DNA of 64,000 nucleotides. It comes from Onchidella celtica. Its lineage: Eukaryota; Mollusca; Gastropoda; Systellommatophora; Onchidiidae. Below the pieces are notes generated by a model. It did not search any database. It saw nothing but the letters and a program-made list of their open reading frames with translations, and was not told the DNA's origin. Location of the stretch: NCBI GenBank assembly GCA_963931925.1, contig OZ007581.1:26649976-26713975 (forward strand), written 5' to 3'. Below are positions 1,423 through 61,676 of the stretch, piece by piece; position 1 is the stretch's first letter; each line of letters opens with the position of its first letter. The position numbers and the translations under genes were made by a program.

Positions 1423-4089
1423 ATGGCGGAACTCCAACAACTAATGAAGTTGGGTAAGGAACTTGGCCTGGAGGGAGAAGAGCTACGCGGCTGGATTAAA
1501 GAACAGCAGGCGGATTTGCGCGATGAGCGTGCTAAGGATAGAGAGCGAGAAAAAGAGGCTAAGGCTCAGGAGCAGGAGAGAGAGGCTAAGGATAAGGAAC
1601 AGGAAAGGGAGTTTAAGTTAAAGGAGTTAGAAGCTCAGCAACAGGAGAGACAGGCTAAGGAAAGGGAGCAGGAGATAAGGTTAAAGGAGATAGAAGCTCA
1701 AGAGCGGGAGACAGACGCGCGAGTAAGAATCGCGGAATTAGAACTCAAAAAGAATGCGCCAACAGAAACAGTTGAGCGGCAGGTACACAATAAAGGTGGT
1801 GTTAGGATTAAGCTCCCTACGTTCGACGACCGGAAGGACGACATAGACGCCTTCCTTTACAGGTTCGAACTGAACGCACAATTGCAATGGGGGGAAAATA
1901 AGGAATTATGGGCCACGTACCTGGCGTCTCTATTGCAAGGGCGAGCGTTAACCTACTTTAAAGAGCTACAGCGCGAAGACGTGCAAGATTACGATAAGCT
2001 GAAGGCTTTGCTGCTTCGCCGATTTGCGCGTACCGAGGAATATTTCCGGGAGCACTTTAGGCGGGCACGTGCAGATACCAGGGAGGACTTTGCTGCCTTC
2101 GTCGCGAGACTAACGGAGTATTTCGCGAACTGGGTAGACTTGGCGCATGTGGGCGCGGATTTTGCTAAACTGAAAGACTTAATGATCCGTGACCAGCTGT
2201 ACGCGTCGTGCCATAAAGATCTGGTGGCCTTCCTGAAAGAAAACGAACCCGCGACGGTGCAGGAGGCGTCTAAGTTGGCGGAAGCATACCGTACGGCACA
2301 TCCGTCCAAACCAGTCGCCAGGGCGTACGTCCAAGATGCTGGGTACGTCGCCGTTGTCGAAGGGTCGCCGGAAGGACTTGGGGACAGGTCGCGTCAGCGT
2401 GGTGCCTATAGTGGGCAAGCCCAGGGGCAGCGTAGGGGCTATCACCAATCACCGGCATATGGATCCGGTAAGTTTGACCGAGCAGGAGGGCTAGGTCGCG
2501 GTAATGGCCGGGGGCGACTTGTGACCTTTGCCGATGACCGACGGCATAGGGACTCTAGTTCCGGTCGCGATGGGTCACGGGGACCCAGGCCTAGTGCAGC
2601 ACAGGGAGCGGAGTGTTGGACTTGCGGACGCGTGGGTCACTTTTCACGCGAGTGTAGGGCCGCGAAGTGTTGGAACTGCGGTAGAGCAGATCACATCAGC
2701 GTGAATTGCCCTGCAGGTAGGATAGCGGCGAACGCGGACAGTAGCTCCAGTCCATGTCCCCCAAAAAAATTTCATCATGCGGCTGCGTGTGTTACATCGG
2801 ACAACGGAGGCGGACAGTATTCTAAGTGTCCCAGTTGTGAGAAGTTATTATCTTCCGGTGTTTTACCTTGTGGGAGAAAGATCCCCGTTATAAATTCATG
2901 TCATACAGGAGGTGGTCTTAGGGTTTATCCGGGGTTTGTTGGGGACGAACCGGTCTCGGTTTTACGAGATACAGGATCTACCGTTGTGGGAGTGCATAGG
3001 GATTGCATTCGGGATTCACAGCTTACAGGTGAGACTGTCCCGTGCATCCAATTTTCGGGGGCCATTGAGAAATTACCCATGGCAAGAATAGTGATAGATA
3101 CACCTTTCCTTAGCGGGGAAGTCGAAGCAGTCGTTGGTTGTTTTCCAGGCGCCCAGCTCATCATTGGGAATGTATCACGGGTAGTTTCCCCTTCCGATGA
3201 GAACGTGCAAGCATGGTCGCAATCAAAAGGTATTGACTTTTGCGCCGCGGTCGAAACACGTCGACGGGTAGCTGATAAAGATAAGATTAGACCTTTGGCG
3301 ACGCCAGCGGTCAACCTAGATATCACGCCAGAGCGCTTGGCGAGATTACAAAGGGAGGATCCATCATTAAACCCATGTTTTGGGGAAGCGCGAACCGAGA
3401 AAACGAGGAGATATAAGAACGGGTCGTCCTCCTTTATTGTTCAGGCGGGCATTCTGTTCCGTATGTACGTCACAGTGGCTTCCGTTCAAAAGCAGGTCGT
3501 CGTGCCGCGGTCGTTAATTGCTACAGTATTGCGTCTGGCCCATGATGTTCCATTAGCGGGTCATATGGGAAGTGCTAGAACCAAGGAGAGAGTTCTGAAA
3601 GATTTTTATTGGCCATCGATACATAGAGATGTGCGGTTGTATTGTAAGACGTGCAGTGCGTGCCAAAAGACGACGCATAAGAGTCGTACACCCCAGACTC
3701 CTCTTCAAAGGATCCCCACGGTTTCGGAACCGTTTAAAAAGGTTTCGATAGACCTTGTTGATTTAAGAGAAAGATTATCTTCAGCGCGCACTATAGCAGA
3801 GGAAGCTTCTAGTATCGCTTCAGCAAGAGCAAAGAACTATAAAGATAGAGGGTCCAAACTGAGAATTTTTAAGCCAGGAGACAAGGTCCTATTGTTGTTA
3901 CCTACGGACCATAATAAGTTATTGATCACATGGAAAGGTCCGTATGTTATTGAGGAAATTGTTTCAAAGGTAGATTACGCTATCCACATTGATGGATCAG
4001 TAAAGGTTTTCCACGTTGATATGCTGCAGAGGTTTCATGAGAGACCAGAGTATCTGTATTATCATACTGGTATTAAAGGACATACCTAA
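1423..4089 (+). CDS. Element A Gag-protease-integrase polyprotein, internally deleted
   Basis: The frame encodes 888 residues. Residues 1-110 are a charged K/E/R/Q coiled coil. Residues 125-290 resemble a Ty3/gypsy capsid, with a C-terminal helical stretch near 255-290 that looks SCAN-like. Two CCHC zinc knuckles follow, C398 to C411 and C416 to C429. The aspartic protease motif D-T-G begins at D516. An integrase H2C2 zinc finger lies near 707-750. The frame then jumps, near base 3760, straight into the integrase C-terminal domain (about 775-875), so the DDE core is missing. The start is supported by an N-terminal pattern shared with element B (MAE, then K-x-L-G, then E-E and W). There is no stop between gag and protease here, unlike element B. 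Confidence 0.88.
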   Translation: MAELQQLMKLGKELGLEGEELRGWIKEQQADLRDERAKDREREKEAKAQEQEREAKDKEQEREFKLKELEAQQQERQAKEREQEIRLKEIEAQERETDARVRIAELELKKNAPTETVERQVHNKGGVRIKLPTFDDRKDDIDAFLYRFELNAQLQWGENKELWATYLASLLQGRALTYFKELQREDVQDYDKLKALLLRRFARTEEYFREHFRRARADTREDFAAFVARLTEYFANWVDLAHVGADFAKLKDLMIRDQLYASCHKDLVAFLKENEPATVQEASKLAEAYRTAHPSKPVARAYVQDAGYVAVVEGSPEGLGDRSRQRGAYSGQAQGQRRGYHQSPAYGSGKFDRAGGLGRGNGRGRLVTFADDRRHRDSSSGRDGSRGPRPSAAQGAECWTCGRVGHFSRECRAAKCWNCGRADHISVNCPAGRIAANADSSSSPCPPKKFHHAAACVTSDNGGGQYSKCPSCEKLLSSGVLPCGRKIPVINSCHTGGGLRVYPGFVGDEPVSVLRDTGSTVVGVHRDCIRDSQLTGETVPCIQFSGAIEKLPMARIVIDTPFLSGEVEAVVGCFPGAQLIIGNVSRVVSPSDENVQAWSQSKGIDFCAAVETRRRVADKDKIRPLATPAVNLDITPERLARLQREDPSLNPCFGEARTEKTRRYKNGSSSFIVQAGILFRMYVTVASVQKQVVVPRSLIATVLRLAHDVPLAGHMGSARTKERVLKDFYWPSIHRDVRLYCKTCSACQKTTHKSRTPQTPLQRIPTVSEPFKKVSIDLVDLRERLSSARTIAEEASSIASARAKNYKDRGSKLRIFKPGDKVLLLLPTDHNKLLITWKGPYVIEEIVSKVDYAIHIDGSVKVFHVDMLQRFHERPEYLYYHTGIKGHT

Positions 4090-4099
4090 TGTCGTGTGA

Positions 4100-4900
4100 T
4101 TCTTTGACGATATAGCATGTCATACGTCGACATGGTCTGATCATATTCAGACACTAACAGTAATTTTTCAACGATTACGTCATTTTGGGTTAACTGCTAA
4201 ACCCGCAAAGATGGATTTGGCCTGTCCAGAGATAATATTCTTAGGACATATTGTGGGTAGAGGTGTTCAGAGACCTGAAGTAACAAAAACTGACAAGTTG
4301 GTAGGGTTGCAAATCCCTAAAACAAAGAAACAAGTCAGAAGCTTAGTGGGAATTTTAAATTATTACAGAAAGTTCATTCCAAATTTTTCCTCCTTGTCAT
4401 CTTCTCTTACTGACCTTACTAAGAAGGGACAACCCGATAAGGTCCAGTGGACGTCTGAATGTCAGACATCATTTGATAATTTGGTGACAGCATTATCATC
4501 GTCACCCATTCTGATATTACCCGATTTTCGATCTAATTTTATCCTCAGAACGGATGCGTCGGACTCTGGTGTCGGCGCTTGTCTTCTACAGGAGAAGAAC
4601 GAATGTCTCCATCCTGTATGTTATGTCAGTAGGAAGTTATTGCAGAGAGAAAGAAAGTATTCTGTGATAGAGCGTGAGTGTCTTGCCATTGTCTGGTCCG
4701 TCCAGAAACTAGGACGTTATCTCATGGGACGAGAATTTTGTATCCAGACAGACCACAAGCCACTGACATTTTTGTCGAAGAATCGTTCGTCCAGCCCACG
4801 CTTGTCTAGATGGGCATTGGCTTTGCAGCCGTATACCTTCGTTATTCAACCAATTCCAGGAACCAGCAATCATATCGCCGACTACCTTAGTCGAGCCTAG
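4100..4900 (+). pseudogene. Element A reverse transcriptase 3' remnant plus RNase H
   Basis: The remnant opens just before the reverse transcriptase catalytic FDD and keeps the rest of the palm and the thumb, including the motifs F-L-G-H and L-N-Y-Y-R-K-F-I-P. RNase H follows, with an active-site R-T-D-A-S-D, the R-E-C-L-A-I segment and T-D-H-K-P-L, and the end is near the expected terminus. Everything before FDD, roughly two thirds of the reverse transcriptase, has been deleted. The frame differs from that of the upstream polyprotein and begins right after a TGA. It lies downstream of the integrase C-terminus, which preserves the unusual domain order. Confidence 0.88.
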
Positions 4901-11209: not shown

Positions 11210-12685
11210 CTAGTCAGATATTTCAGCTTTGGGGAGGAAAAGCACCACCAGAATTAAACTCACAGCAGCAATCGAAGAACCAGTCGCAAAAACAGCAAAC
11301 CATCCGCCATACTTAAGAAGTAATAACACGATAGGCGGTCCAGCGAGATTCAGAGGAACATCCCCGGACAGGATAAGTCCTAAGTTAGTTGCGTAATGTG
11401 TCCGCCCAAAGAGCTTCAGAGCTGCCATAGCGTAAAGGAAGAAAAATCCCCAAATTAATGAACCAATGGCGGCGGTCCAAACCAAATACAACCATCGGTT
11501 TAACATTGGCGTGAAATACCAGAAAACGACGCTCAAAGACAAACCCGAGGTGAAAAAGACAATGGTGTTCTTCACTCCGAAATAGTCTACTATCAGACCC
11601 CATACAAGGCTTGTACAAGCATTGCCAACCAAAATAATAGTTCCTACATCAGCCAAAAAGTGATCATCCTTGATCCACAGCTGCCCGTATATTTTATAAT
11701 AATTTGATGTCACCATGTAAGTGAAGGATGACGTCATGACACATGACCACATGATATAAAAACGCGGAGTCTTCAGAACTTGTAATGGGGATAAATCCGT
11801 GGTATATGCAGTTTCCTCCTGAGTGGAATCATTTTTTTGTGGAGCCTGACTTTCATGGCCGCACAGACGGCTGTTTTCATCCATTTCATTACGGGTAACT
11901 TGGGATTTTTCGTGGGCTTTGTCTTGTCCGACAGGGTTGTTCTCCGTGCTTCCTCTCGCCTCTTCAGCTGAATGATCTTTGCCTTTCCTTGCTTGCCCAG
12001 CATTTTCTCCCAACAACTGCACGTATTTTACATTTCGGATAAGACAAAGTCCGATAACATGTGGAACAAACGATAGAGCGAATAGAATCAAAAACGAGTT
12101 TGGCACTCGGTCAAGAATTTCCTGCTGAGTGAAATATACATTATCTTTCAGTCTCAAATCTGGAGCTTCGTTGTCTGGATTGATGTAAAATGTTGTGCAC
12201 TGAATGAGTACCAAAGATCCAATTCCACAGCTTGATATAATAACTCCAGTACATAGTCCAATGTTTTTGAAATGACACCAACATCTAATTATGTATACTA
12301 TCTGGCCGTATAGAATCCCAAATGCCAAACCATTCACAGCTCCAGTTGTGATTACAAACGCTGCCACTGAATGATTGATGGTGATATAGCTGAGACCCAA
12401 ACCGAGGTTGTAAATGACGATAGCGATACCGAGAGTCCAGTGATTACCTAGAAACTTGCTGATGATACCACCAAATGAAACCCCCACCGTTGAGCCAACC
12501 AATGCCAGAGAAAAGGTCCACGGAGTGTCAAAACCACTGTCAGGTCCTAAGGTAGTTCTGATGTAAGAGTCCGTGTAGGCCTTGAGATTCCCCCAGTACC
12601 AAGTGATGTTTGCAGGCAAGAGGGTGATAGCGCAGCCAATGAAAGTGCAGTATCTGAAACACGTCAGTTTTGTAGATCGCTGCAT
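11210..12685 (-). CDS. Major facilitator superfamily transporter, copy 1 (OFA/monocarboxylate-like)
   Basis: This 491-residue membrane protein has about twelve hydrophobic segments in two blocks, split by a hydrophilic, presumably cytoplasmic loop of about 95 residues (roughly 215-310). After the eighth helix there is a motif-A-like G-L-I-V-D-Y-F-G-V-K. The equivalent N-terminal loop has lost the usual aspartate. Overall it resembles oxalate/formate antiporter-like and monocarboxylate-type MFS proteins of invertebrates. The substrate cannot be read from sequence. I start at the ATG at 12685, not at the in-frame ATG 8 codons upstream, because the upstream codons are a pyrimidine tract ending in TTTTAG, a splice acceptor that leaves CAAA before the ATG. 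Copy 2 has the same arrangement. The whole coding region is one exon, and a 5' non-coding exon is implied but not located. Confidence 0.88.
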   Translation of the reverse strand: MQRSTKLTCFRYCTFIGCAITLLPANITWYWGNLKAYTDSYIRTTLGPDSGFDTPWTFSLALVGSTVGVSFGGIISKFLGNHWTLGIAIVIYNLGLGLSYITINHSVAAFVITTGAVNGLAFGILYGQIVYIIRCWCHFKNIGLCTGVIISSCGIGSLVLIQCTTFYINPDNEAPDLRLKDNVYFTQQEILDRVPNSFLILFALSFVPHVIGLCLIRNVKYVQLLGENAGQARKGKDHSAEEARGSTENNPVGQDKAHEKSQVTRNEMDENSRLCGHESQAPQKNDSTQEETAYTTDLSPLQVLKTPRFYIMWSCVMTSSFTYMVTSNYYKIYGQLWIKDDHFLADVGTIILVGNACTSLVWGLIVDYFGVKNTIVFFTSGLSLSVVFWYFTPMLNRWLYLVWTAAIGSLIWGFFFLYAMAALKLFGRTHYATNLGLILSGDVPLNLAGPPIVLLLLKYGGWFAVFATGSSIAAVSLILVVLFLPKAEISD

Positions 12686-12715
12686 TTTGCTAAAAGGAGA
12701 AAAAAACAAAGAAAA
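12686..12715 (-). promoter_or_regulatory. Splice acceptor before transporter copy 1 start codon
   Basis: A pyrimidine-rich tract ending TCTCCTTTTAG directly precedes CAAA-ATG. Copy 2 has TTCTTCACCTAG before the same CAAA-ATG. Conservation of the tract in both paralogues, despite changes within it, argues for a real 3' splice site and an intron in the 5' untranslated region. Confidence 0.7.
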
Positions 12716-13739: not shown

Positions 13740-14100
13740 ACATGTTGGACTTCGACTTGGGTTTTATTGCGCGTCGGCACGATAGCGGTCACTTTACGCC
13801 TTTCACAGTATTTTGGGTACACGTTCTTTATTTATGTTTCGTATTCAGAGCTTTTAATTTAAGTTTAACATAGAATTAAATACATTCCTATTTATAATTT
13901 TAATCATATTGATAAAATTCTCAAAAGTTAAGTTGGTTTGTATGATCTGAAATAAAACTTCTGTAAATGACTATAAAAGTGTTTAAACCAAGTTGTAGAT
14001 CTTAGCCTCTCTCAGAAAGGATAAGATGCCTTGAGGGTCCACGCCAGAAAATAATTCTTTGATGGATCCGCAGATATAGTGCATGTCTTCTTCAAATGCA
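13740..14100 (-). repeat. Repeat family X, uninterrupted copy
   Basis: Read on the minus strand, this matches 43720-43890 and then continues without a break into the sequence that lies after the transposon at 46362. It therefore serves as an empty site for that insertion. It ends in the dispersed motif AAAGTGACCGCTATCGTGCC (reverse complement near 13765-13802). The family is unclassified. Confidence 0.85.
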
Positions 14101-37323: not shown

Positions 37324-38856
37324 TCAAGGCAAGTCATTGCATTCGTTCTTTTTTATAATAGTTTGTTGAAAACAGTCAGATATTTCTGCTTTGGGCAGGA
37401 AAAGTACCACCAGAATTAAACTCACAGCAGCCATCAAAGCGGCCGTGGCAAACAGTGCAAACCACCCGCCATGGGTAAGAATTAATAACACGATAGGCGG
37501 TCCAGCGAGATTCAGAGGAATATCCCCAGATAGAACAAGTCCTAAATTAGTTGAGTAATGAGTCCGTCCAAATAGCTTCAGAGATGCCATGGCGTAAATA
37601 AAGAAAAATCCCCAAATTAATGTACCAATGGCGGCGGTCCAAACCAAATACAACCAACGGTTTAGCATGGCCGTGAAATACCAGAAAATGACGCTCAAAG
37701 ACAAACCAGAGGTGAAAAGGACAATGGTGTTCTTCACTCCGAAATAGTCTACTATCAGACCCCATACAAGGCTTGTACAAGCATTGCTAACCAAAATAAT
37801 AGTTCCTATATCAGCCAGAAAGTGATCATCCTTGATCCATAGCTGGCCATAAATTTTGTAATAATTTGATGTCACAATGTATGTGAAGGATGTTGTCATG
37901 GCACACATCCACAGGATATAAAAGTATGGAGTCCTCAGAACTTGTAATGGGGATAAATCAGTCGTATAATATGCAGTTTCTTTCAGAGTGGAATCGTTTT
38001 CTTGTGGAGCCTGACTTTCATGGCCACACAGACGGCTGTTTTCATCCACTCCATTACGGGTAACTTGGGATTTTTCATGGGCTTTGTCTTGTCCGACAGG
38101 GTTGTTCTCTGAGCTTCCTCTGGCCTCTTCGGCTGAATGATCTTTATCACTGTCTTCCATTGACTGCCCAGCGTTTTCTCCCAAAAGCTGCACGTATTTT
38201 TCATTTCGGACAAGACAAAGTCCGACAATATGGGGACCAAGTGATAGCACGAGTATAATCAAAAACACGCTTGGCACTCGGTCAAGGATTTCCTGCTGGG
38301 TGAAATATATACTGTCTCCCAGTCTCAAATCTGGGACTTCATTATTTGGATTGATGTAAAATGTCGTGACCTGAATCAACACCAAAGACCCAATTCCACA
38401 AAAAGATATAATAATCCCAGTGCATAATCCAATGTTTTTGAAATGACACCAACATTTAACTATGTGCAATATGTGTCCGTATAGAATCCCATATGCCAAA
38501 CCATTCATAGCTCCAGTTGTGATTACAAACGTTGCCACTGAGTCGTTGATTGTGAAATAGCTGAGACCCAAACCGAGGTTGTAAATGCAGACAGCGGTTC
38601 CGAGCGTCCAGTGATTACTAAGATACTTGTTGATGCAGCCGCCAAGTGAAACCCCCAATGTGCAACCCACCAATGCTAGGGAAAAGGTCCACGGAGTGTC
38701 AAAACCACTGTCAGGTCCTAAGGTAGTTCTGATGTAAGAGTCCGTGTAGACATTGAGATTCCCCCAGTACCAAGTGATGTTTGCAGGCAAGAGAGTCATA
38801 GCGCAGCCAATGAAAGTGCTGTATCTGAAACACGTCAGTTTTGTAGACTGCTTCAT
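37324..38856 (-). CDS. Major facilitator superfamily transporter, copy 2, C-terminally extended
   Basis: 510 residues from the ATG at 38856, chosen because the same splice acceptor (CACCTAG, then CAAA-ATG) precedes it as in copy 1. The longer in-frame start 17 codons upstream would translate the pyrimidine tract. It has the same twelve-helix plan, central hydrophilic loop and G-L-I-V-D-Y-F-G-V-K motif. By my rough count it differs from copy 1 at about 20% of residues in the N-terminal half but only about 12% in the C-terminal half. Copy 1 ends at P-K-A-E-I-S-D-stop. Here a small deletion removed that stop and the frame continues for 16 residues through former 3' untranslated sequence into inserted DNA. 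Both copies keep full-length frames, so both may be functional. Confidence 0.87.
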   Translation of the reverse strand: MKQSTKLTCFRYSTFIGCAMTLLPANITWYWGNLNVYTDSYIRTTLGPDSGFDTPWTFSLALVGCTLGVSLGGCINKYLSNHWTLGTAVCIYNLGLGLSYFTINDSVATFVITTGAMNGLAYGILYGHILHIVKCWCHFKNIGLCTGIIISFCGIGSLVLIQVTTFYINPNNEVPDLRLGDSIYFTQQEILDRVPSVFLIILVLSLGPHIVGLCLVRNEKYVQLLGENAGQSMEDSDKDHSAEEARGSSENNPVGQDKAHEKSQVTRNGVDENSRLCGHESQAPQENDSTLKETAYYTTDLSPLQVLRTPYFYILWMCAMTTSFTYIVTSNYYKIYGQLWIKDDHFLADIGTIILVSNACTSLVWGLIVDYFGVKNTIVLFTSGLSLSVIFWYFTAMLNRWLYLVWTAAIGTLIWGFFFIYAMASLKLFGRTHYSTNLGLVLSGDIPLNLAGPPIVLLILTHGGWFALFATAALMAAVSLILVVLFLPKAEISDCFQQTIIKKNECNDLP

Positions 38857-39360
38857 TTTGCTAGGTGAAGAAAAAAACGGAAAAAATGTCTGGTTAAACC
38901 GTTTCATAGACTAATGAACACTATTGCCAAACCTTTCAATAGGCAAATACAGTATAGTGTAAGTACACTGTTTAACCATCAAATCGTATTTCAACACAGA
39001 TTTCTATAGTAACATTTGACGAATTATGATTATTATGTGAAAAGAAACTGTTTTCCTATCCATACAACAAGCAAGGACATCGTCTTGCAGACTCATTTAT
39101 TTGCAAATGGGTATTACAATCACGACGTCTAAAATTTACAGGTCCCATTCTATCATTTCAAAACTTGCACCAACTAACAGTAGGAAAAACTGCAAATTGT
39201 GGTAATAACTGTATGGTCTTGAAAAAATAGATCTTGATCTAAATGTGATGCTTACAATGCTTTTCTGTGTATTCAATAAGACAAAAATGGTTTTGCTGAA
39301 AATAACTGGCATGAGGTTTACATTATTTTTGTTCTCTTTTATTTTTTAACAGTTTACCCA
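38857..39360. other. Non-coding upstream region of transporter copy 2
   Basis: It begins with the splice acceptor tract. GAAACGGTTTAACCAG is shared with copy 1 (12722-12740). I see no exon in the remainder. Confidence 0.5.
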
Positions 39361-43560: not shown

Positions 43561-44488
43561 TTGTGGACCCATGTTCAGCTGCACCTTGCAGTTTTGCACT
43601 ATTGTCCATGGTAAAACCGGCCCCTCTTCCCCTTCCCTTGATGCACTAAGACGTGCTCATTTTTGGTTAATGGTGAATCCAGCCTTGTCTCTGTGTCAGT
43701 GTGTGAAGTCTACACATTCATATGCCAGTGGATTCATGAAAGAATTATTTTCTGACGTGGAACCGCAACGTATCCTGTCCTTTCTGAGAGAGGCTCAGAT
43801 CGACAACTTGGTTTAATAACTTTTATACTCGTTTACAAAACTTTTTCCAGATGTATACAAAACAACTTTTTAAAAATTATACCAATGTGTTAGAATTATA
43901 TCGTCATGGTGCTTCCAATATTGCCTAAGTCAGACTTAGGCAAAAATGGAATAAGGCCATTTTTAGACAAAGCTCATCTTCCCGCTCCTTCTGATAAAAA
44001 AAATTTTGTAAGGTGCCGCGCCATTTTTGAAAAAACCGCCATTTCTAATATTGCCCAACATAAACAATGGAGTTAGGCAGTCTTAACCCCAGAGCCAATA
44101 CTGCCTAACTATGAGTTAGGCAGTATTGGCTTCAGTGTTGATTCTGCCTAACTATGAGTTAGGCAAGATTGACCTGGTGCCAATATTGCCTAAGTCTTTG
44201 TTAAGCAATATGAGGTCAGAGAAGAGCACCGTGTTTTGAACTCTTCGGACTCTAAAGTTTCGCTTTCGTTTTGTTCTTTGTTTTTTTTTCTTTTTGTTGG
44301 CAGGAGGACCTGCTTTTTTGTGTTAAGATCCTGATTTTTATTTTAGATAATTATAGGCTAATGAAATTTTGATCTAGGACTCCTGCATCAAGAAATCTAG
44401 GTCTAGATCTAGGACTCTTGAATCAAGAATTCTAGATTGCAGAGAACATTGAGATTCTAGATCTACTACACTCTAGGCCTAGTCAAAA

Positions 44489-44639
44489 ATGGAGCAAAAA
44501 GAAAGTGCAAGCAAGGCAAAAAGACCAAGACTATTAAGCGTTGCTGAAGTAATGAAATGTGTGTTAAATCACGACAGTAATCTATCAGATGCAAATTCTA
44601 CAGATTTTGAGTCTGATCACAACTTAACGGCCAGTTCAG
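44489..44639 (+). pseudogene. First exon of the transposon gene at 43898-46361
   Basis: It opens with ATG (MEQKESASKAKRPR...) and encodes about 50 residues with a basic patch, then an acidic serine-rich stretch. It ends at a good splice donor, TTCAG followed by GTAAGG. Exon 1 with an acidic N-terminus is also seen in the related gene at 47381. The middle of the protein is missing between this exon and 44668. Confidence 0.6.
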
Positions 44640-44667
44640 GTAAGGATGAATAGGTTACATAGCTGTT

Positions 44668-45255
44668 TCCAAGGTTGTTATTTGGAGTGATGGCTGTGGC
44701 TATCAAAATAAGTCCACAACAATAGCCAACAGTTTGTTGCACTTAGCCATGGAAAAAAATGTGCCAATTGAGCAAAAATTTCTCACTCCAGGCCACACCC
44801 AAATGGAGTGTGACGCTATGCATAGCCTTATTGAAAGGAGGACCAAGTGTGACATCTTTACGCCCAGGGAATACATGCTGGCAATGGAAATGGCCAGAGA
44901 GACTCCATCTGCCTACAAAGTGACTGAGGTCCTGTTTTCTGAGGTTAAGAAGTTGTCGGGTGACTATGTGAAATCTGTTCGTCCAGGAAAGAAGGCAGGT
45001 GACCCCACGGTGTCAGATGTTTGTGCCTACAGATATTCATTTGATGATGCAGGAGCACATATCTTCTACAAACTGGAATGGTTGGACGACTGGCAGGAAC
45101 TACCAAACAGACTTACTGCAGACAGGAAGCGTTGGATACCTCTTTTTACAGAAAGACGGGCCATCACAAAGAGAAAGTTCCAAGATTTACAAGCTATGAA
45201 ATCAGTCATGCCAGAAAATGTCCACCATTTCTTTGACAATTTACCCAATGAATAA
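44668..45255 (+). pseudogene. C-terminal part of a GxQNK-family transposase-like protein
   Basis: The frame reads through W-S-D-G-C-G-Y-Q-N-K (near 44683-44712) and then P-G-H-T-Q-M-E-C-D (near 44790), followed by about 150 residues to a stop. In animal proteins of this poorly described family the order is an S-D-x-C-x-G-Q-N block and then a G-H-x-x-x-E-x-D block (my recollection of the family). The conserved D and H/E/D residues are plausible catalytic residues of a DDE-type nuclease. The N-terminal half found in the relative at 53215-54853 is absent, so this copy is internally deleted. The last exon frame itself is undamaged. Confidence 0.7.
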
Positions 45256-45548
45256 ACAGACTGGAAGCTATCAACAAAGTGCCTGTGTACTTTCTGGGTT
45301 TTATTTTAAGTGATAGTTAAAGTTACGGTACTTACTCGTAATGTTGTTCAAGAAGTTTAAGTTACTTCGTGTTATTCGTCACTTTCTGTGTTTAATTAGA
45401 CGCCAAGTTAAGCGTTAAGTTAAAGTGATTTCATTTTATTCACATATAAAGCTACTTCATGTTATTCACGACGTTAAAGTTACTTCACCTTAATTTACGA
45501 AGTTGTAGTTACTTCATGTTATTCAAGAAATGTTATAGGCTACATATT

Positions 45549-45851
45549 TTATGCCTGCAAATTTATGTGCCGTTGTTGTTTTTCATACTTTTTTAAAAGG
45601 TAGCGTAGTTCAGCCAAAGTTATTTCTTTTTCTAATTCTTCCTTTTGATCGGCTGTTAATTTTGGCATGTTGTCATAACTGATATTTTCGTCACTAATTT
45701 CATTCGTATTTTGCACTGGGTCTTTATTTGTGTACAGCTGTCCATAATAGTTTTTAACTAGGAAAAGGATTGGCTGCCTATGTAAATTCAATTTTTGTAA
45801 TTTGTTTATTTCTGATTGAATGAAACTGGTTGTTCTCGAACATTCTCTCAT
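45549..45851 (-). pseudogene. LINE (L1/Tx1-like) fragment, linker before the RT domain
   Basis: A 100-residue open stretch includes F-L-V-K-N-Y-Y-G-Q-L-Y-T and K-L-T-x-D-Q-K-E-x-L-E-K-E-I-T-x-x-E-L. That is the usual connection between the endonuclease and reverse transcriptase of L1/Tx1-type LINEs. The expected N-N-K-S-P-G-x-D-G that should follow is missing. It lies inside the DNA transposon, so it was inserted there or captured. Confidence 0.6.
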
Positions 45852-46510
45852 TTTACGTAAAATGGTGTTTAATAATGGACATAGATGGAAAAGAATAAGA
45901 GCAAAATGGAAGACTCCTTATGTGCATTGTTTTATTAAAAGAATTAAAATGTTTTCAAAATATGTTGGCTTTGTCTGGGTGATGCCTGTATGTAAGTGTA
46001 TGTGGTCAAAATAAACATAATTAATGAAAATTGTGTCCTCTAAAGTACTCTGCAAAGTCAACAAAAATGTTGCCTAACTCAGATTTTGTGTGTGTCAAGA
46101 TTGCCTAACTCATTTTCGTAATAACCAATTTTGCCCAACTCAGGTTTTTCATGTGCCAAAATTGCCTAAATCATATATATCCCATAATTTTGAGGAGAAA
46201 TAAAAAAATAGTATGCACATAGTAGTATTATGGTTGTTAAATAGGAACAAGCCTATATTTTGGTTTAAATGTTTAGTTTTGTGGCTGTCAATCACTTAAA
46301 TTTGATTTTCTCAAAAAGTCAAAAAATGAGTTAGGCAATATTGGCAGCACCATGACGATATGAATGTATTTAAGTCTATGTTAAACTTGACCGCTATGAG
46401 CACGGAACATAAAGAAAGAAAATGTACCCAAATAGACCGTGAAGGGCGGAAAGTAGCCGTTATCCTGCCGACGCGCCGGTAAAATCCAAATTCAAACTCT
46501 TTAATAGCGT

Positions 46511-50772: not shown

Positions 50773-52068
50773 TCAAGTTTCCTTCTGTTTTGCGCTTGAT
50801 CTGGTGATTCGTTTCCCTCCTGGAGGTACAGTAGTCTCTGTTTTTCCTTGTTTGTTGTAGGATTGTAATCTGAGTATTGCTTTCGGAATGCCTGTTGGCA
50901 CTTCCAAAGGCGGCCCATTATTTATTTGGGGGCCCTGTTCTGGAGGCAACGGTGGTGGGGATCGGGCTAACGGCATTTGTTCCTTTTCTGGAGGCAACAG
51001 TGGTGGGACTGTTGGTGGGGATTGGGCTAACGGCATTTCTTCCTTTTCTGGTGGCAGAAGCATTGGGATTGGTGGTGGCGATTGAGTAGGTGTCCTCAAT
51101 TGTGGTGGGTTCCTCGCTGGAGTGCTTCTGATCCCTGTGTCATTATCGTAAGAAGTGCTGTCTGCTGGGTATGCAGCTGTTTGTGGAGGGGGTGCATATT
51201 TGAATATACTCGTCTCTTCAGGTGGAGTAGCAGGGACATAATGGCGCAGATATTTTCTGTTCCGTAAAGTAACCCTACCTGATCCGCCCATTTTCACAAG
51301 GTATTGATCGAATTGGCGCACTTCGATGATGGTCCCAGTTTTGTCCCATTTTGTGGGGTGAGGTCCAGTTTGATTCTGAATCCTAACTTTGTCTCCGACT
51401 TTAAGTGGAGGCAACCTCTTTGTGTGTTCTGTCAGTCTCTCTGCCATTTTCATGTGGCGGTTCCTTAGGGCTTCTTCCCTGGCAAGCAGAGTCTCTCTCC
51501 AGGTTGGGTGGGGCTCATATCTTCCAGGATGTATGGGTACGAAGTCCCTGATTGGTCTTCCAAAGATACACTGAGCTGGAGAGATGCCAGTTTCCTTGTC
51601 TGGGGTGTTCCTATACTGTAGCATAGCTCTGTGGAAAGCATCAGTGTCAAGGGTTCCAGAAGGGCCTGTGTTGTCCATTAGGAGACGTTTGACAGTCTTA
51701 ACAGCGATCTCTGCTCTGCAATTGCTATGAGGATAGGCCACAGAGGAGGTTCTGTGGTAGACTCCCCAGTCTTTGAGGAATTGCTCAGTTTGTGAGGCTG
51801 CAAATTCTGGACCGCCATCAGACGTAAGTTCCTCACTGATACCAAAGGTAACAAAAAATTTTCTGAGGCACGTTATGAGACCACTGGCTCCTTCTTTTGC
51901 TTTGTCAACGATTGGCCACTTGCTGTATCTGTCCACAGTGACGCAATAGTACTGACCACTGTAGTGGAAGTAATCCACACATATTGCTTGGAATGGGTAT
52001 ATTGGAACCTTTGGTGGGGTGGGAGGTGGATTCGGCTGTGATGGTGCAATGGATAAATGGAGAGTGAG
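50773..52068 (-). CDS. Ty3/gypsy integrase fragment with proline-rich tail
   Basis: Counting from the V-D-Y-F-H-Y block at 51978, the integrase core keeps D16 (V-D-R-Y-S), D54 (S-D-G-G-P-E-F) and E90 (N-C-R-A-E), with 35 residues between the last two, the canonical DD35E spacing. The C-terminal domain follows (V-G-D-K-V-R-I-Q-N-Q-T-G). A long proline-rich tail then carries P-P-x-x-P repeats. The open frame extends upstream to a TAG at 52069-52071 and so includes a proline-rich segment before the core. The H2C2 zinc finger and all reverse transcriptase sequence are missing. There are no LTRs nearby. It is not closely related to elements A and B. It is probably a 5'-truncated retroelement, though an intact catalytic frame leaves room for a captured gene. 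Confidence 0.82.
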   Translation of the reverse strand, partial: LTLHLSIAPSQPNPPPTPPKVPIYPFQAICVDYFHYSGQYYCVTVDRYSKWPIVDKAKEGASGLITCLRKFFVTFGISEELTSDGGPEFAASQTEQFLKDWGVYHRTSSVAYPHSNCRAEIAVKTVKRLLMDNTGPSGTLDTDAFHRAMLQYRNTPDKETGISPAQCIFGRPIRDFVPIHPGRYEPHPTWRETLLAREEALRNRHMKMAERLTEHTKRLPPLKVGDKVRIQNQTGPHPTKWDKTGTIIEVRQFDQYLVKMGGSGRVTLRNRKYLRHYVPATPPEETSIFKYAPPPQTAAYPADSTSYDNDTGIRSTPARNPPQLRTPTQSPPPIPMLLPPEKEEMPLAQSPPTVPPLLPPEKEQMPLARSPPPLPPEQGPQINNGPPLEVPTGIPKAILRLQSYNKQGKTETTVPPGGKRITRSSAKQKET

Positions 52069-57155: not shown

Positions 57156-60100
57156 CTAAATTAGACGTGACAAAATATCAGCTTGGGAATTGTCACCGCC
57201 AGGGATAGCCCGGATAACAAACCGGTATTCCTGGAGTGCAAGACTCCACCTCGTTAATCGAGCATTTTTAGCCCTGTTAGCCTTCAAGAATAACAACGGA
57301 CGATGGTCCGTTTCAATTATAAACTCGGACATGAGTAGATATCGCGAAAATGCGTTTACAGCAAAAATGATAGCGAGGCACTCTCGCTCGATAATTGCAT
57401 AGCGGCATTCCCTATCTAGCAACTTGCGGCTGGCGTATAGACATGGCCGCAAGGTATCGTCTCGTTCCTGTAATAACACAGCTCCCAATCCCTTGTCCGA
57501 CGCATCAGTGCGGACAATAAATATTTGGTTTATATCTGGCAGTATGAGAATGGGGGAAGTGGAAAACAGTTGTTGAACGGTACGAAGTGTATCAGCACAT
57601 TCGGTTGTCAATTTCACTTTATTAGGAAAATTCTTTCTTGTGAGGTCCGACAACGGAGCTGTAAGCGAAGAAAAATTTGGAATGAATTTCCTATAATAGT
57701 TAAGAAAGCCCAATAAACTACGAACTTCTTTCTTAGTTCGAGGGGGTTGGAGCTTTAAGATGGTAGTTATCTTCTTGTCATCAGGAGTCTGAACGCCGTG
57801 GGCAATTGTATGGCCCAGAAAATTAATTTCATTATATCCTAAAAACACCTTACTGGGTTTCGCCGTAAGGCCAGCTCGACGAAGAGCAATAAAAACTTGT
57901 CGTAGGGCTGCGAGGTGTCCCGACCAATTGGTTTCATAAATACAAATGTCGTCAAAATACGACAATACGGAATTCATACCCTGGAGCAATATGGTCATCA
58001 TACGGGCGAAAGTGGCAGGGGCTGTAACTAACCCGAAAGGCATATAGCGCCACTGCATAAGACCCAACGGAGTCTGAAAAGCGGTATATTGCTTGCTATT
58101 CTCATCAAGCGGAATTTGCCAATAGCCTTTGGAAAGGTCAATTTTAGAAAAAATCGTTGCCCTCGCTAACTGAGCAAAAAGATTCTCCTGGTTGGGAATC
58201 GGTTCAGCGTCATATATCGTAACCTCATTAAGTTTACGATAGTCAATACAAAAACGCACCGTATCATCTTTTTTTTTCACTAAGACGATGGGTGAGTTAT
58301 ATGGGCTCGTCGATCGCTCTATCACTCCCAGGTGAAACATGTTACGTACCTCGGATATTATAGTCTCCTGTGCGTGCAGCGGACGCGGGTATGGTTTAAC
58401 AAAGACGGGTATATCCGTCTTTAATCTTATAACATGCTGTACCAAAGAAGTATTACCTGGTAGATCAGTAAAGACTGTAGTAAACTCGTTATGCAAATCT
58501 CTTATATCTTGTCTTTGCGATTCAGATAAATCTGGATTTATATTTACATCCGAAGTGTTTTCAGAAGATCGAAGTGCGGGGATTGAATTGTCTATTTTAA
58601 TAGGATCATCATCGTCAACTGAAACCAAGGCCGCATTGGCCTGAGCAACCACATTTCGGCGATTATTATGTCGATTATCCTCGTCGGACAGGTACTGCTT
58701 TAACATATTTATATGGAAGACTTTGTCCTGTCCCCGAATCTTGATAAGATAATTTACTCGAGAAAGTCTCTTTAGGACTTTAAAAGGTCCTTTCCATGTA
58801 AGAAGGAGTTTATTTTTCGTCTCCGGAAGGAGAACAAGAGTTTGGTCTCCGACGGCCAAGGTTCGCAATCGGCTACCTTGATCACGATATAGTTTATAAA
58901 GACTAGCATGCGCAGCTGAAGATTTTTGTGCGAGCTGACATGCGTTAAGAATTCGATGCCGCAAGTCTACAACGTATTGATATGCAGACCGCGTATCGTT
59001 GTCGTCGGTGTCTGATCCGGCGAATAAATCATGGAGTATGGCCATTGGACCACGCGGCTTGCGACCATACAATAATTCGAAGGGGGAAAAACCCGTCGAT
59101 GCGTTCGGCAGTTCTCGATATGCAAAAAGAATAGCGGGGAGTTGTCGATCCCAATCACTCGGCTTGTCGGCGGAAACTCGCGCAAGCATAGTTTTCATGG
59201 TAGCATTCCACCGTTCACAGCAGCCATTAGACTGTGGGTGGTATGGAGATGTCAATCTTTGTTTAATCCCGACCAATTCCAAGACTTTCTTAAAAAGCTC
59301 AGAGGTAAACTGTGGACCTCTGTCCGATAGAATTTCAACCGGAAACCCAAGACGCGAAAAAACAGTAATACGGGCCTCAGCAACATGATCGGCTGAAATG
59401 TCTTTTAGCGGAATGGCCTCTGGCCAACGGGTTGCGTAGTCAATGACAGAAAGTATAAAACGATGTCCTCTGTCTGACTTGTGTAGGGGCCCAACTATAT
59501 CTACGGCAACGCGCTCAAATGGTCTGGAGACCATAGGCATCTCCTGCAGAGGAGCCCGCGATGCTCTTCCTTTAAGAGTACGTCTCTGACATACGTCACA
59601 TGTTGATACGAACCGGTTTACATCTGCGTAAATACTGGGCCAAAAAAATTGCGATAGTATTCGAGACTTAGTTCTGGCCTTTCCCTGGTGACCCGCCAAG
59701 GAAGTGTCATGCGCGAGACGAATAATGTCGCGACGAAAAGATCTCGGTACTACAAGCTGCATAACGGCCTCTCGCTTACTCCGAAAATTACGATATAATA
59801 AGTCATCTTTAATAAGAAACTTAGAGGTATCCGGCGCGGTAGGATCAACCTTAGCAAACAAATGTTTCAATGTGGGATCTGAATGTTGCTCATCATGAAA
59901 TGCACTAGACGTTATGTTCACTTCAATAGTAGGATTACTCAATGGACTGTCTGCTCGTCGACTCGATTGTAGGCGTGTTGTCGCACAAGCAACACTCTCA
60001 TCCTCAGTCCAAATTTCCAAGTTACCGATAGGAAACTTATTTACTTGAGGTACATTGCCTATGATTATATCAGCCACCGGATTAGGCAGTACACATGCGG

Positions 60101-60335
60101 TAACAATACCTGTGAGAAAAGGTGTATCAATATAAACTTCTGCAAGACGGAATCGCTCTACAGATCCGCCAAAAGTAATACAAGTTACATCCTTGTCCAA
60201 AAATTGTGTTGGACGGACTAGTGACTGTCGAACGCCGATAGTCGTGCATCCGGAGTCACGTAGAACAGAAGCGCGAATGGCGTTCACGCGGCCCTGGTAA
60301 AATGTTAATTCACCCAGTTCATGTAGGGCGGACAT
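57156..60335 (-). CDS. Element B Pol: protease-integrase-reverse transcriptase-RNase H
   Basis: 1059 residues from the first ATG. The true start is probably upstream, through the gag TGA. Protease: D27-S-G. Integrase zinc finger H-x7-H ... C-x2-C near residues 205-260. DDE core near 270-430, with V-D-I-V-G-P, S-D-R-G-P-Q-F and N-G-C-C-E-R. Integrase C-terminal domain near 480-550, ending V-F-H-I-N-M-L-K. Reverse transcriptase near 620-830, with I-D-L-S-K-G-Y-W-Q-I and catalytic Y-F-D-D. RNase H near 900-1059, with R-T-D-A-S-D, R-E-C-L-A-I and T-D-H-R-P-L. All catalytic residues I can check are present and there is no stop or frameshift, so the enzyme could be functional. The integrase-first order is shared with element A. 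Confidence 0.93.
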   Translation of the reverse strand: MSALHELGELTFYQGRVNAIRASVLRDSGCTTIGVRQSLVRPTQFLDKDVTCITFGGSVERFRLAEVYIDTPFLTGIVTACVLPNPVADIIIGNVPQVNKFPIGNLEIWTEDESVACATTRLQSSRRADSPLSNPTIEVNITSSAFHDEQHSDPTLKHLFAKVDPTAPDTSKFLIKDDLLYRNFRSKREAVMQLVVPRSFRRDIIRLAHDTSLAGHQGKARTKSRILSQFFWPSIYADVNRFVSTCDVCQRRTLKGRASRAPLQEMPMVSRPFERVAVDIVGPLHKSDRGHRFILSVIDYATRWPEAIPLKDISADHVAEARITVFSRLGFPVEILSDRGPQFTSELFKKVLELVGIKQRLTSPYHPQSNGCCERWNATMKTMLARVSADKPSDWDRQLPAILFAYRELPNASTGFSPFELLYGRKPRGPMAILHDLFAGSDTDDNDTRSAYQYVVDLRHRILNACQLAQKSSAAHASLYKLYRDQGSRLRTLAVGDQTLVLLPETKNKLLLTWKGPFKVLKRLSRVNYLIKIRGQDKVFHINMLKQYLSDEDNRHNNRRNVVAQANAALVSVDDDDPIKIDNSIPALRSSENTSDVNINPDLSESQRQDIRDLHNEFTTVFTDLPGNTSLVQHVIRLKTDIPVFVKPYPRPLHAQETIISEVRNMFHLGVIERSTSPYNSPIVLVKKKDDTVRFCIDYRKLNEVTIYDAEPIPNQENLFAQLARATIFSKIDLSKGYWQIPLDENSKQYTAFQTPLGLMQWRYMPFGLVTAPATFARMMTILLQGMNSVLSYFDDICIYETNWSGHLAALRQVFIALRRAGLTAKPSKVFLGYNEINFLGHTIAHGVQTPDDKKITTILKLQPPRTKKEVRSLLGFLNYYRKFIPNFSSLTAPLSDLTRKNFPNKVKLTTECADTLRTVQQLFSTSPILILPDINQIFIVRTDASDKGLGAVLLQERDDTLRPCLYASRKLLDRECRYAIIERECLAIIFAVNAFSRYLLMSEFIIETDHRPLLFLKANRAKNARLTRWSLALQEYRFVIRAIPGGDNSQADILSRLI

Positions 60336-60353
60336 GACTGGAATAGCCTTGGA

Positions 60354-60359
60354 TTGTCA
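60354..60359 (-). promoter_or_regulatory. In-frame TGA-CAA between gag and pol
   Basis: The stop codon of gag (TGA at 60359-60357) is followed by CAA TCC, and pol continues in the same frame eight codons before its first ATG. A stop followed by CAR-YYA-like sequence is a known readthrough context, as in tobamoviruses, and gammaretroviruses join Gag and Pol by stop readthrough. Element A is fused in this region. A simple point mutation is the alternative. Confidence 0.5.
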
Positions 60360-61676
60360 TGAAGATTCAGAATGACCGTCAGTCTCATAAGGTGTAGATT
60401 TAACCGAGCAGGCATTTGTTGATTCCATTTTCACGTTACAAAATTTTTGTATGTGACCTACCCTATTACATCTAAAACACATAATACGATTAGGATCGTT
60501 TCCACGATAAGGAAGACTCTGCGGTCTATCATAATCATGATTATTATCAAAATGCACTCGTCGCGGCGGTCCCTGAGGCCGGTTATATTGTTGGCCTGGA
60601 TAGTTGCCACGATAATATGGGCGAGGCTCGTAAAAAGAGTAAGTCTGGTATCCTCGACGCGGGGATACATTACTTCGATTCGGGAAATCCCTCTGTCTAA
60701 AAAAAGGTGGCTCTGATTGAGAGCGCGGATTTGGGGCCTGACGACGAGTCGGCCTTGAACGATCGTGTCCGGTTGGCGCTCCTTTGCCGACGTTGGCATA
60801 ACACGGTGCTGTAGTTGAAGGCTTTGCCAAAGGACGATTTGGGTGGGCGGACGCATAACGTTCCGCGCACGATGTGATTTCTTCAGAGGATGTCGGTGCC
60901 CTCTCTTTAAGGTGGGCAACCAAATCGGAATGACATGCCGTATAGATTTGGTCTTTTAAGACCAAATCATAAAGTTGAAGATAATTTCCGGTAGTCACGT
61001 TCGCGAGCTCGATCCAGCGATCTAAGTAATGTTTCAGCCGATTCACATAAGTTGAGAAATTTTCAGATGGCTCAGGTTTACATGTGCGAAATCTCTGATG
61101 AAAGCCATCCTCGGTATGCTGGAATCGCTTAAGCAGTGCTGTTTTAAGCTTGTCATAGTCGTTGGCATCCTCTACTTTGAGGCTATGAAATACTTCCAGA
61201 GCCTTACCTGTTAGTAAATTAGACAGGCATGAACTGTACATCGCCTGCTGCCATCCGACGCATTTAGCGTGTAGCTCGAACCGATGTAAATATGCGTCGA
61301 TCCGGTCGAGTTTTTCATTAAACGTCGGCAGCTTTGGTTTGGTAGCATAAGTATTGGTGGCAGTAGTGGGGGTCACAAGCGATTCTCGCTCTAACTTCTT
61401 TATTGCGAGTTCATGCTGCCTTTCCTTTTCTCTCTCTCTTTCTTTTTCTTTTTCTCTTTCTCTTTCTTCTTTTTCTCTTTCTCTTTCTCTTTCCTTTTCT
61501 CTCTCTACTTCTTTTTCTCTTTCTCTTTCTTCTTTTTCTCTTTCTCTTTCTCTTGCTTCTTTTCGATCCTCACGATCTCGGTCTTGTTGTAATTGTCGTT
61601 CGCACCACGAGGCGCGTTCTTCTTCTGGTATACCCAGAACTTTGGCAGATTCAATGTATTTAAGAAACTCGGCCAT
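60357..61676 (-). CDS. Element B Gag
   Basis: 439 residues. The N-terminus (MAE, K-x-L-G, E-E, W) matches element A and supports the start. A long E-R-E-R-E-K coiled coil spans about 30-100 and is encoded by a GA-rich repeat. A capsid-like region at about 112-285 has F-x-x-R-F-E-L-H and the C-terminal block D-L-V-L-K-D-Q-I-Y, which is SCAN-like. An R/P/Q/Y-rich linker follows, and one CCHC knuckle (C-F-R-C-N-R-V-G-H-I-Q-K-F-C) lies near the end, where element A has two. The protein should package element RNA in virus-like particles. It ends at the TGA discussed for readthrough. Confidence 0.9.
   Translation of the reverse strand: MAEFLKYIESAKVLGIPEEERASWCERQLQQDRDREDRKEAREREREKEEREREKEVEREKEREREREKEEREREKEKEREREKERQHELAIKKLERESLVTPTTATNTYATKPKLPTFNEKLDRIDAYLHRFELHAKCVGWQQAMYSSCLSNLLTGKALEVFHSLKVEDANDYDKLKTALLKRFQHTEDGFHQRFRTCKPEPSENFSTYVNRLKHYLDRWIELANVTTGNYLQLYDLVLKDQIYTACHSDLVAHLKERAPTSSEEITSCAERYASAHPNRPLAKPSTTAPCYANVGKGAPTGHDRSRPTRRQAPNPRSQSEPPFFRQRDFPNRSNVSPRRGYQTYSFYEPRPYYRGNYPGQQYNRPQGPPRRVHFDNNHDYDRPQSLPYRGNDPNRIMCFRCNRVGHIQKFCNVKMESTNACSVKSTPYETDGHSESS

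Follow-up and report, generated by a model that had tools for sequence, protein, structure and literature searches.

A stretch of 64,000 nt from the genome of the mollusc Onchidella celtica (G000:C15:26649976-26713975, hereafter the window) carries at 43898-46361 a unit with inverted ends and the remnant of a gene, and raises the question of whether the proteins encoded by such genes, assigned to the Pfam family DUF7869 (PF25273), move DNA. In an earlier interpretation made from the letters of the window (the sequence-only reading), this unit had been taken for a mobile element that links an obscure protein family to transposition. We consider it very probable that DUF7869 is a transposase and that the unit is its defective derivative. 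On this view, the unit is a DNA transposon of the cut-and-paste type, present as a non-autonomous copy of 2.46 kb, and Sola2 is the closest described kind. The assignment of the signature proteins as transposases is well supported by the copies in the genome, their target-site duplications and open frames, two further gene families (2 and 3) with ends of their own, and the predicted fold. In agreement with a DDE/D transposon of the cut-and-paste type, dispersed copies have inverted termini, a duplication of fixed length (4 bp) and a gene product with a predicted ribonuclease H (RNase H)-like fold and D-D-D triad.

The element in the window

Together with its target-site duplications, the unit spans 43898-46361 (2,464 nt); the transposon proper, 43902-46357, begins 5'-CGTCATGG. 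The following features were delineated:

13757..14069, minus strand: paralogous uninterrupted site, 78-81% identical to each of the two flanks
43898..43901, no strand: left target-site duplication ATAT, repeated exactly over 4 bp; the same holds for 15 of the 16 other loci with both ends
43902..43932, plus strand: 5' terminal inverted repeat, CGTCATGGTGCTTCCAATATTGCCTAAGTCA, from arm comparison
43921..44208, both strands: 5' subterminal array of TTGCCTAACTCA-like motifs, some as back-to-back pairs, with 10 of the 15 sites found at up to three mismatches
44489..44639, plus strand: remnant of a 5' exon, MEQKESASKAKRPRLL..., with a donor-like gtaagg next to it at 44640
44660..44662, no strand: approximate internal-deletion junction, where the equivalent of positions 289-1346 of the L033 element is missing
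44668..45255, plus strand: 3' part of the putative DUF7869-type transposase gene, with the second and third catalytic D present and the first absent
46070..46173, plus strand: 3' subterminal array of four TTGCCTAACTCA-like motifs, from the motif count
46327..46357, minus strand: 3' terminal inverted repeat, from arm and copy comparison
46358..46361, no strand: right target-site duplication ATAT, from copy comparison

Most of the structure described by the sequence-only reading is recovered in this analysis. Its inverted termini of about 30 bp correspond to 35-bp arms that are 94% identical (43898-43932 and 46327-46361, ATAT counted in). The subterminal motifs, of which it had counted nine or ten, are strongly concentrated in the unit: TTGCCTAACTCA with at most one mismatch occurs at 8 sites there versus none in the remaining 61,536 nt of the window, with at most two mismatches at 11 versus 4 sites, and with at most three at 15 versus 47. 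The interior gene remnant with both signature blocks, SDGCGYQNK and GHTQMECD, is present in frame within 44668-45255. The frame of the 5' exon remnant (MEQKESASKAK) is found fused to the gene body in two other copies, L031 and L032, and we infer splicing at the GTAAGG donor-like site. Inside the transposon, 3' of the gene, there is also an imperfect 29-bp tandem array of 4.1 copies (AAGTTAAAGTTACTTC..., 45417-45529).

The uninterrupted paralogue that had been placed at 13.74-14.1 kb was likewise confirmed. Given that this stretch aligns over the joined flanks of the unit, the insertion is real; the junction itself is diverged, and therefore the length of the duplication is not fixed by the paralogue alone.

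Two similar long frames (11210-12709 and 37324-38907, both on the minus strand), which by eye resemble paralogous multi-pass transporters, lie within a few kb of the empty-site paralogue and the transposon flank. The paralogue may thus belong to a locally duplicated region.

Copies in the genome and the target-site duplication

The genome (1.14 Gb in 43 contigs) was searched for copies of the element, hereafter family 1; 40 of 349 candidates were scored, and the counts are lower bounds. A genome search had been proposed by the sequence-only reading as a way to full-length copies; the one made here recovered near-identical relatives: over a shared 3' segment (533 nt; 440 nt in L044), 14 of the 15 other loci match the window copy at 98.5-99.8% identity, whereas L045 has none of this segment. 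Six internal-deletion structures with both ends are represented among the mapped copies:

~2.46 kb: the window copy and L042
3.04 kb: L033-L036; L037 belongs to this type but is without its first 47 bp
~2.77 kb: L032; L031 is related and carries an interruption of ~5 kb
~1.73 kb: L038 and L039
~1.71 kb, with another junction: L040
0.9 kb: L043, with L044 sharing the junction and lacking the 3' end

L041 has an additional deletion and lacks the 5' end; other copies have intact open frames. One deletion is common to L042 and the window copy, which are 99.7% identical, yet they differ in their duplications (ATAT versus AATG) and flanks, and thus a defective copy was moved. Of the earlier description, according to which an active family gave rise to this non-autonomous copy by deletion, the derivation stands, given the deletions and the near-identical copies, whereas activity is suggested by near-identity: judging from sequence identity in family 1 and from an identical pair in family 3 (see below), movement appears to have been recent.

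The target-site duplications were compared across copies, as had also been proposed. Among 21 loci, 17 could be assessed (L037, L041, L044 and L045 have one end missing or truncated); five of these (L046-L050) are elements of ~340 bp with related, not identical, termini. An exact 4-bp direct repeat lies directly outside CGTCATGGTGC...GCACCATGACG in 16 of the 17 loci with both ends (11 of 12 family-1 loci and all five related short elements). ATAT accounts for 10 of the 16 duplications, and ATAC, AAAT, AGCT, CTAT, AATG and TTAT appear once each. Because ATAT is its own reverse complement, the window copy alone cannot place the boundary of the duplication; it is the non-palindromic examples (ATAC, AAAT, CTAT, AATG, TTAT) that identify the 4-mers as target duplications lying outside the inverted repeat. 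The 5-bp duplication GAATT/GAATG put forward by the sequence-only reading had to be abandoned, since none of the 17 loci has an exact 5-bp match adjoining the CGTCATGG ends and, at the position outside ATAT, only the window (1 of 17) has at most one mismatch.

At locus L031 (G000:C5:37071300-37081299), a second, inverted version of the 5' end lies beside the element, and the outer flanks are reverse-complementary; either this locus was duplicated in inverted orientation or its assembly is faulty. It has two candidate left ends, of which the one closing the element was taken; the duplication is ATAT either way.

Termini matching ATATCGTCATGGTGCTGCC with at most two mismatches occur 607 times genome-wide versus 0 for the reversed pattern, and most of the listed places carry the slightly different terminus of the 340-bp elements L046-L050. 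The latter elements keep the tip CGTCATGGTGC and differ in the subterminal word (GACCTTTTGGCCTAAGTCA in some). Together, these elements and the ~600 termini suggest a second, related family that drives them.

It could be argued that the unit is not mobile and reflects chance or a segmental duplication, given that its flanks lie in a duplicated region (13757-14069). This explanation is exceedingly improbable in view of the excess of termini over the reversed pattern and the presence of copies in different flanks with different exact duplications.

Two further families share the gene and the integration rule

A protein search of the genome, in which 128 of 824 candidates were scored, gave 128 matches, and in many of these the open frame is long. 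Family 2 has a 769-codon frame, within which the six copies compared are 97.0-99.5% identical, and its ends are CGTCGGCCGGCTGATGAAACCG; the two copies in which both ends were read have exact duplications, ATAT and ATAA, and the 3' end has 40 matches at 93-100% identity (40 of 56 candidates scored). Family 3, present in 17 matches of the protein search, has an 834-codon frame and the ends CGTGGGCGAC...; two of its copies are identical over 1,192 of 1,192 nt, and a 4-bp duplication is found in both loci with both ends read, for example ATAT at both sides of the copy on contig C1. Terminal sequences that differ, alongside a common integration rule and a common gene, are what one would expect were this gene the transposase. 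The frames of families 1 and 2 also look constrained, as judged from the pooled ratio of nonsynonymous to synonymous variation (pN/pS), which is 0.53 in family 1 (5 copies) and 0.43 in family 2 (6 copies).

The alternative that the DUF7869 gene is a passenger, i.e., cargo of an element moved by another enzyme, would account for the broken gene of the window copy taken alone and for the different terminal sequences of its relatives. The sequence-only reading had named the occurrence of the gene between unrelated ends as a sign of such capture, and in the letter this is what is observed; in meaning it is not, because each of the three gene families has its own paired ends and follows the same 4-bp rule. 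This pattern is as expected for diverged transposases rather than captured passengers. Furthermore, in the 3.9-kb family-2 locus L060 the DUF7869 frame is the only one exceeding 250 codons in a scan that starts after the first 0.7 kb of the element, and the predicted transposase fold and apparent constraint on the frames also speak against cargo. Altogether, capture is very unlikely.

On contig C1 (G000:C1:74949788-75123744), nine family-3-like termini, all with an identical one-base variant, are spaced by ~20-27 kb, and a larger unit may be repeated in tandem there.

The DUF7869 proteins and their predicted fold

One search yielded 475 relatives at E<=0.01. Pfam PF25273 is matched at E<=0.01 by 53 of 62 aligned relatives (best E-value 7.4e-10), although this entry has a name and a description without function and the matches span only part of the model. 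Thus, the family is obscure with respect to function and less so otherwise: it is known to Pfam, widespread in animals, and possibly already described as Sola2. The best named relatives are from the sea slugs Elysia and Plakobranchus, and the gastropod Lottia has one as well (P0133). DUF7869 genes are also present in Callosobruchus, Nilaparvata, Gadus and Priapulus. Among the 120 of the 475 relatives that were listed, 26 carry a name and none of these reads transposase; two source names hint in that direction (P0026, "DDE Tnp4 domain-containing", and P0120, "Integrase catalytic domain-"). No known transposase family in Pfam was matched by the 62 relatives, where single Kdo and Pox_D5 matches were taken as chance; NCBIfam gave chance-level matches only for the two proteins scanned, and in a sequence search of the Protein Data Bank (PDB) the window fragment had four chance-level matches and the profile none. 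With two strict patterns, which make for a weak negative, 34 pattern matches in viral contigs of IMG/VR and 32 in prokaryote genomes included 0 confirmed relatives in either set.

The fold prediction, suggested earlier as a check for a D/D/E fold, gave an RNase H-like fold of the transposase type with an almost invariant D-D-D triad, for which D289, D368 and D409 are the proposed residues. In the L033 protein, matches to YdaS_toxin (E 0.009) and HTH_Tnp_1_2 (E 0.15) hint at a helix-turn-helix near residues 108-161.

Two database entries deserve comment. A DUF7869-like protein of Sarotherodon galilaeus (P0041) is deposited as "RISC-loading complex subunit TARBP2" and is probably a mis-annotated transposon. 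An 872-aa DUF7869 protein under a bacterial name (P0184, from a Sedimenticola sp. metagenome-assembled genome, on a 4.9-kb contig) probably represents animal DNA contaminating the metagenome bin.

Several observations weigh against the identification of DUF7869 as the transposase of these elements. In the hidden Markov model search, a check proposed by the sequence-only reading, the window fragment scores 21.1 bits, the L033 protein 19.4 and P0033 24.5, each below the Pfam cut-off of 26. In Foldseek, the TM-scores (structural similarity) are low, ~0.2 for the whole model, with the match confined to one domain, and the fourth row is an Argonaute. One locus of the 17, L040 (G000:C1:82062340-82064653), has unmatched flanks, ATAT versus AATG, and is possibly a recombinant of two copies. 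In L043 (94%) and L044 (85%) the 5' end of family 1 has diverged, and the 40 scored candidates include no complete, uninterrupted copy of this family that has both the entire gene and its 5' exon. The pN/pS values scatter: synonymous change is absent from 3 of 10 family-1 pairs, and 1 of 15 family-2 pairs has pN/pS >1. Finally, the second family-3 locus, 3.5 kb on contig C10 with CAGT at both sides, is known from its ends alone. Overall, we rate the transposase assignment as very probable.

Sola2 or a separate superfamily

Neither the name DUF7869 nor a description of these elements was found in the literature searched, which included work on new transposon superfamilies and slug genomes. Some known systems with partial similarity can be set aside. 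Kolobok and piggyBac share the 4-bp duplication, and D409-x-x-H412 of the present proteins is reminiscent of the C/DxxH signature reported from Kolobok and other systems; the duplication of both systems is TTAA-specific (PMC9587614). TTAA is found in 0 of the 16 duplications here, and piggyBac has, in addition, no Pfam match among the 62 relatives. No PDB sequence match to the Mariner/Mos1 and SETMAR transposase domain was obtained here. Mariner/Tc1 elements duplicate TA, in place of which 4-bp duplications are found here.

By contrast, the Sola2 group of the Sola superfamily fits best among the systems considered. Sola transposases are said, after Bao et al. in 2009, to be DDD enzymes, and the triad here is D-D-D. 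In Dictyostelium fasciculatum and Polysphondylium pallidum, the Sola2 elements have 4-bp AT-rich AWWT duplications (ATAT, AAAT, ATTT) and inverted termini of 12-21 bp, one of them encoding an 888-aa transposase (PMC3627910). The duplications of the present elements are 4 bp long in all but one locus and composed mostly of A/T (ATAT, AAAT and similar), and the frames have 769-834 codons. Common to both are AT-rich 4-bp duplications, ATAT and AAAT among them, inverted termini that are short, a transposase of considerable length and copies with internal deletions (PMC3627910). The published Sola2 examples considered are amoebal and carry Fanzor1. It appears somewhat better than an even bet that DUF7869 is the transposase of Sola2, in which case the novelty would lie solely in connecting the transposon name with the Pfam label. 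Against this, the likeness is one of descriptions; no dictyostelid is named among the 120 listed relatives; and some duplications are not AT-only (AGCT, CTAT, AATG, ATAC, CAGT). A survey with Sola1-3 profiles that included Lottia gigantea reports Sola in bivalves only among molluscs (PMC10294476), despite the DUF7869 relative in Lottia. The latter argument is weak because the same survey excluded frames of <300 codons or without a methionine start (PMC10294476).

Alternatively, the DUF7869 elements could form a separate superfamily of 4-bp-duplicating DDD transposons outside the 20 DDD/E-encoding superfamilies of Repbase, a possibility to be taken seriously even if we rate it below even. The missing matches to known transposases in Pfam, NCBIfam and PDB, the missing name in the literature and the missing word transposase among the 26 named of the 120 listed relatives are compatible with it. 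However, the Sola2 duplication pattern fits, the source names of P0026 and P0120 point to a transposase or integrase domain, and the lack of a Pfam match means little given that we know of no Sola model in Pfam. In its broadest form, this proposal, which we advance only tentatively, is that DUF7869 defines a superfamily of its own, apart from Sola1-3 and all described ones, with CGT...ACG ends and ATAT-preferring 4-bp duplications, still active and present in molluscs, insects, crustaceans, fish, corals and priapulids. If true, it would account for animal proteins in the hundreds that at present are labelled uncharacterised. The safe statement is that of a DDD transposon with Sola2-like integration, as compared by description.

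Other features of the window

Gag/pol frames of Gypsy-like retrotransposons are located at 1423-4900 (plus strand), 50773-51978 and 57156-61676 (both minus strand); judged by eye, they contain a zinc knuckle as well as sequence resembling integrase and reverse transcriptase. The 64-kb window gave no match to tRNAs or to Rfam families.

Proposed mechanism and implications

From the observed ends, duplications and movement of deleted copies, we propose how binding, cutting and enzyme sharing might proceed. The N-terminal cysteine/helix-turn-helix region of the enzyme would bind the terminal and subterminal TTGCCTAACTCA repeats, the enzyme would cut beside the CG ends, and the ends would be joined over a 4-bp stagger in AT-rich, ATAT-like targets. 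Deleted copies would still carry the ends and be moved by enzyme that a different copy supplies; the window copy would depend on such an enzyme because its first catalytic D is absent.

Under the transposase assignment, a Pfam domain without function and with hundreds of relatives becomes a probable transposase with defined ends, target and proposed active site. Many of these relatives are deposited as uncharacterised or hypothetical proteins, and it is probable that transposons have been included among the genes catalogued for insects, fish and molluscs. The near-identical copies make families 1 and 3 candidates for a working transposition system.
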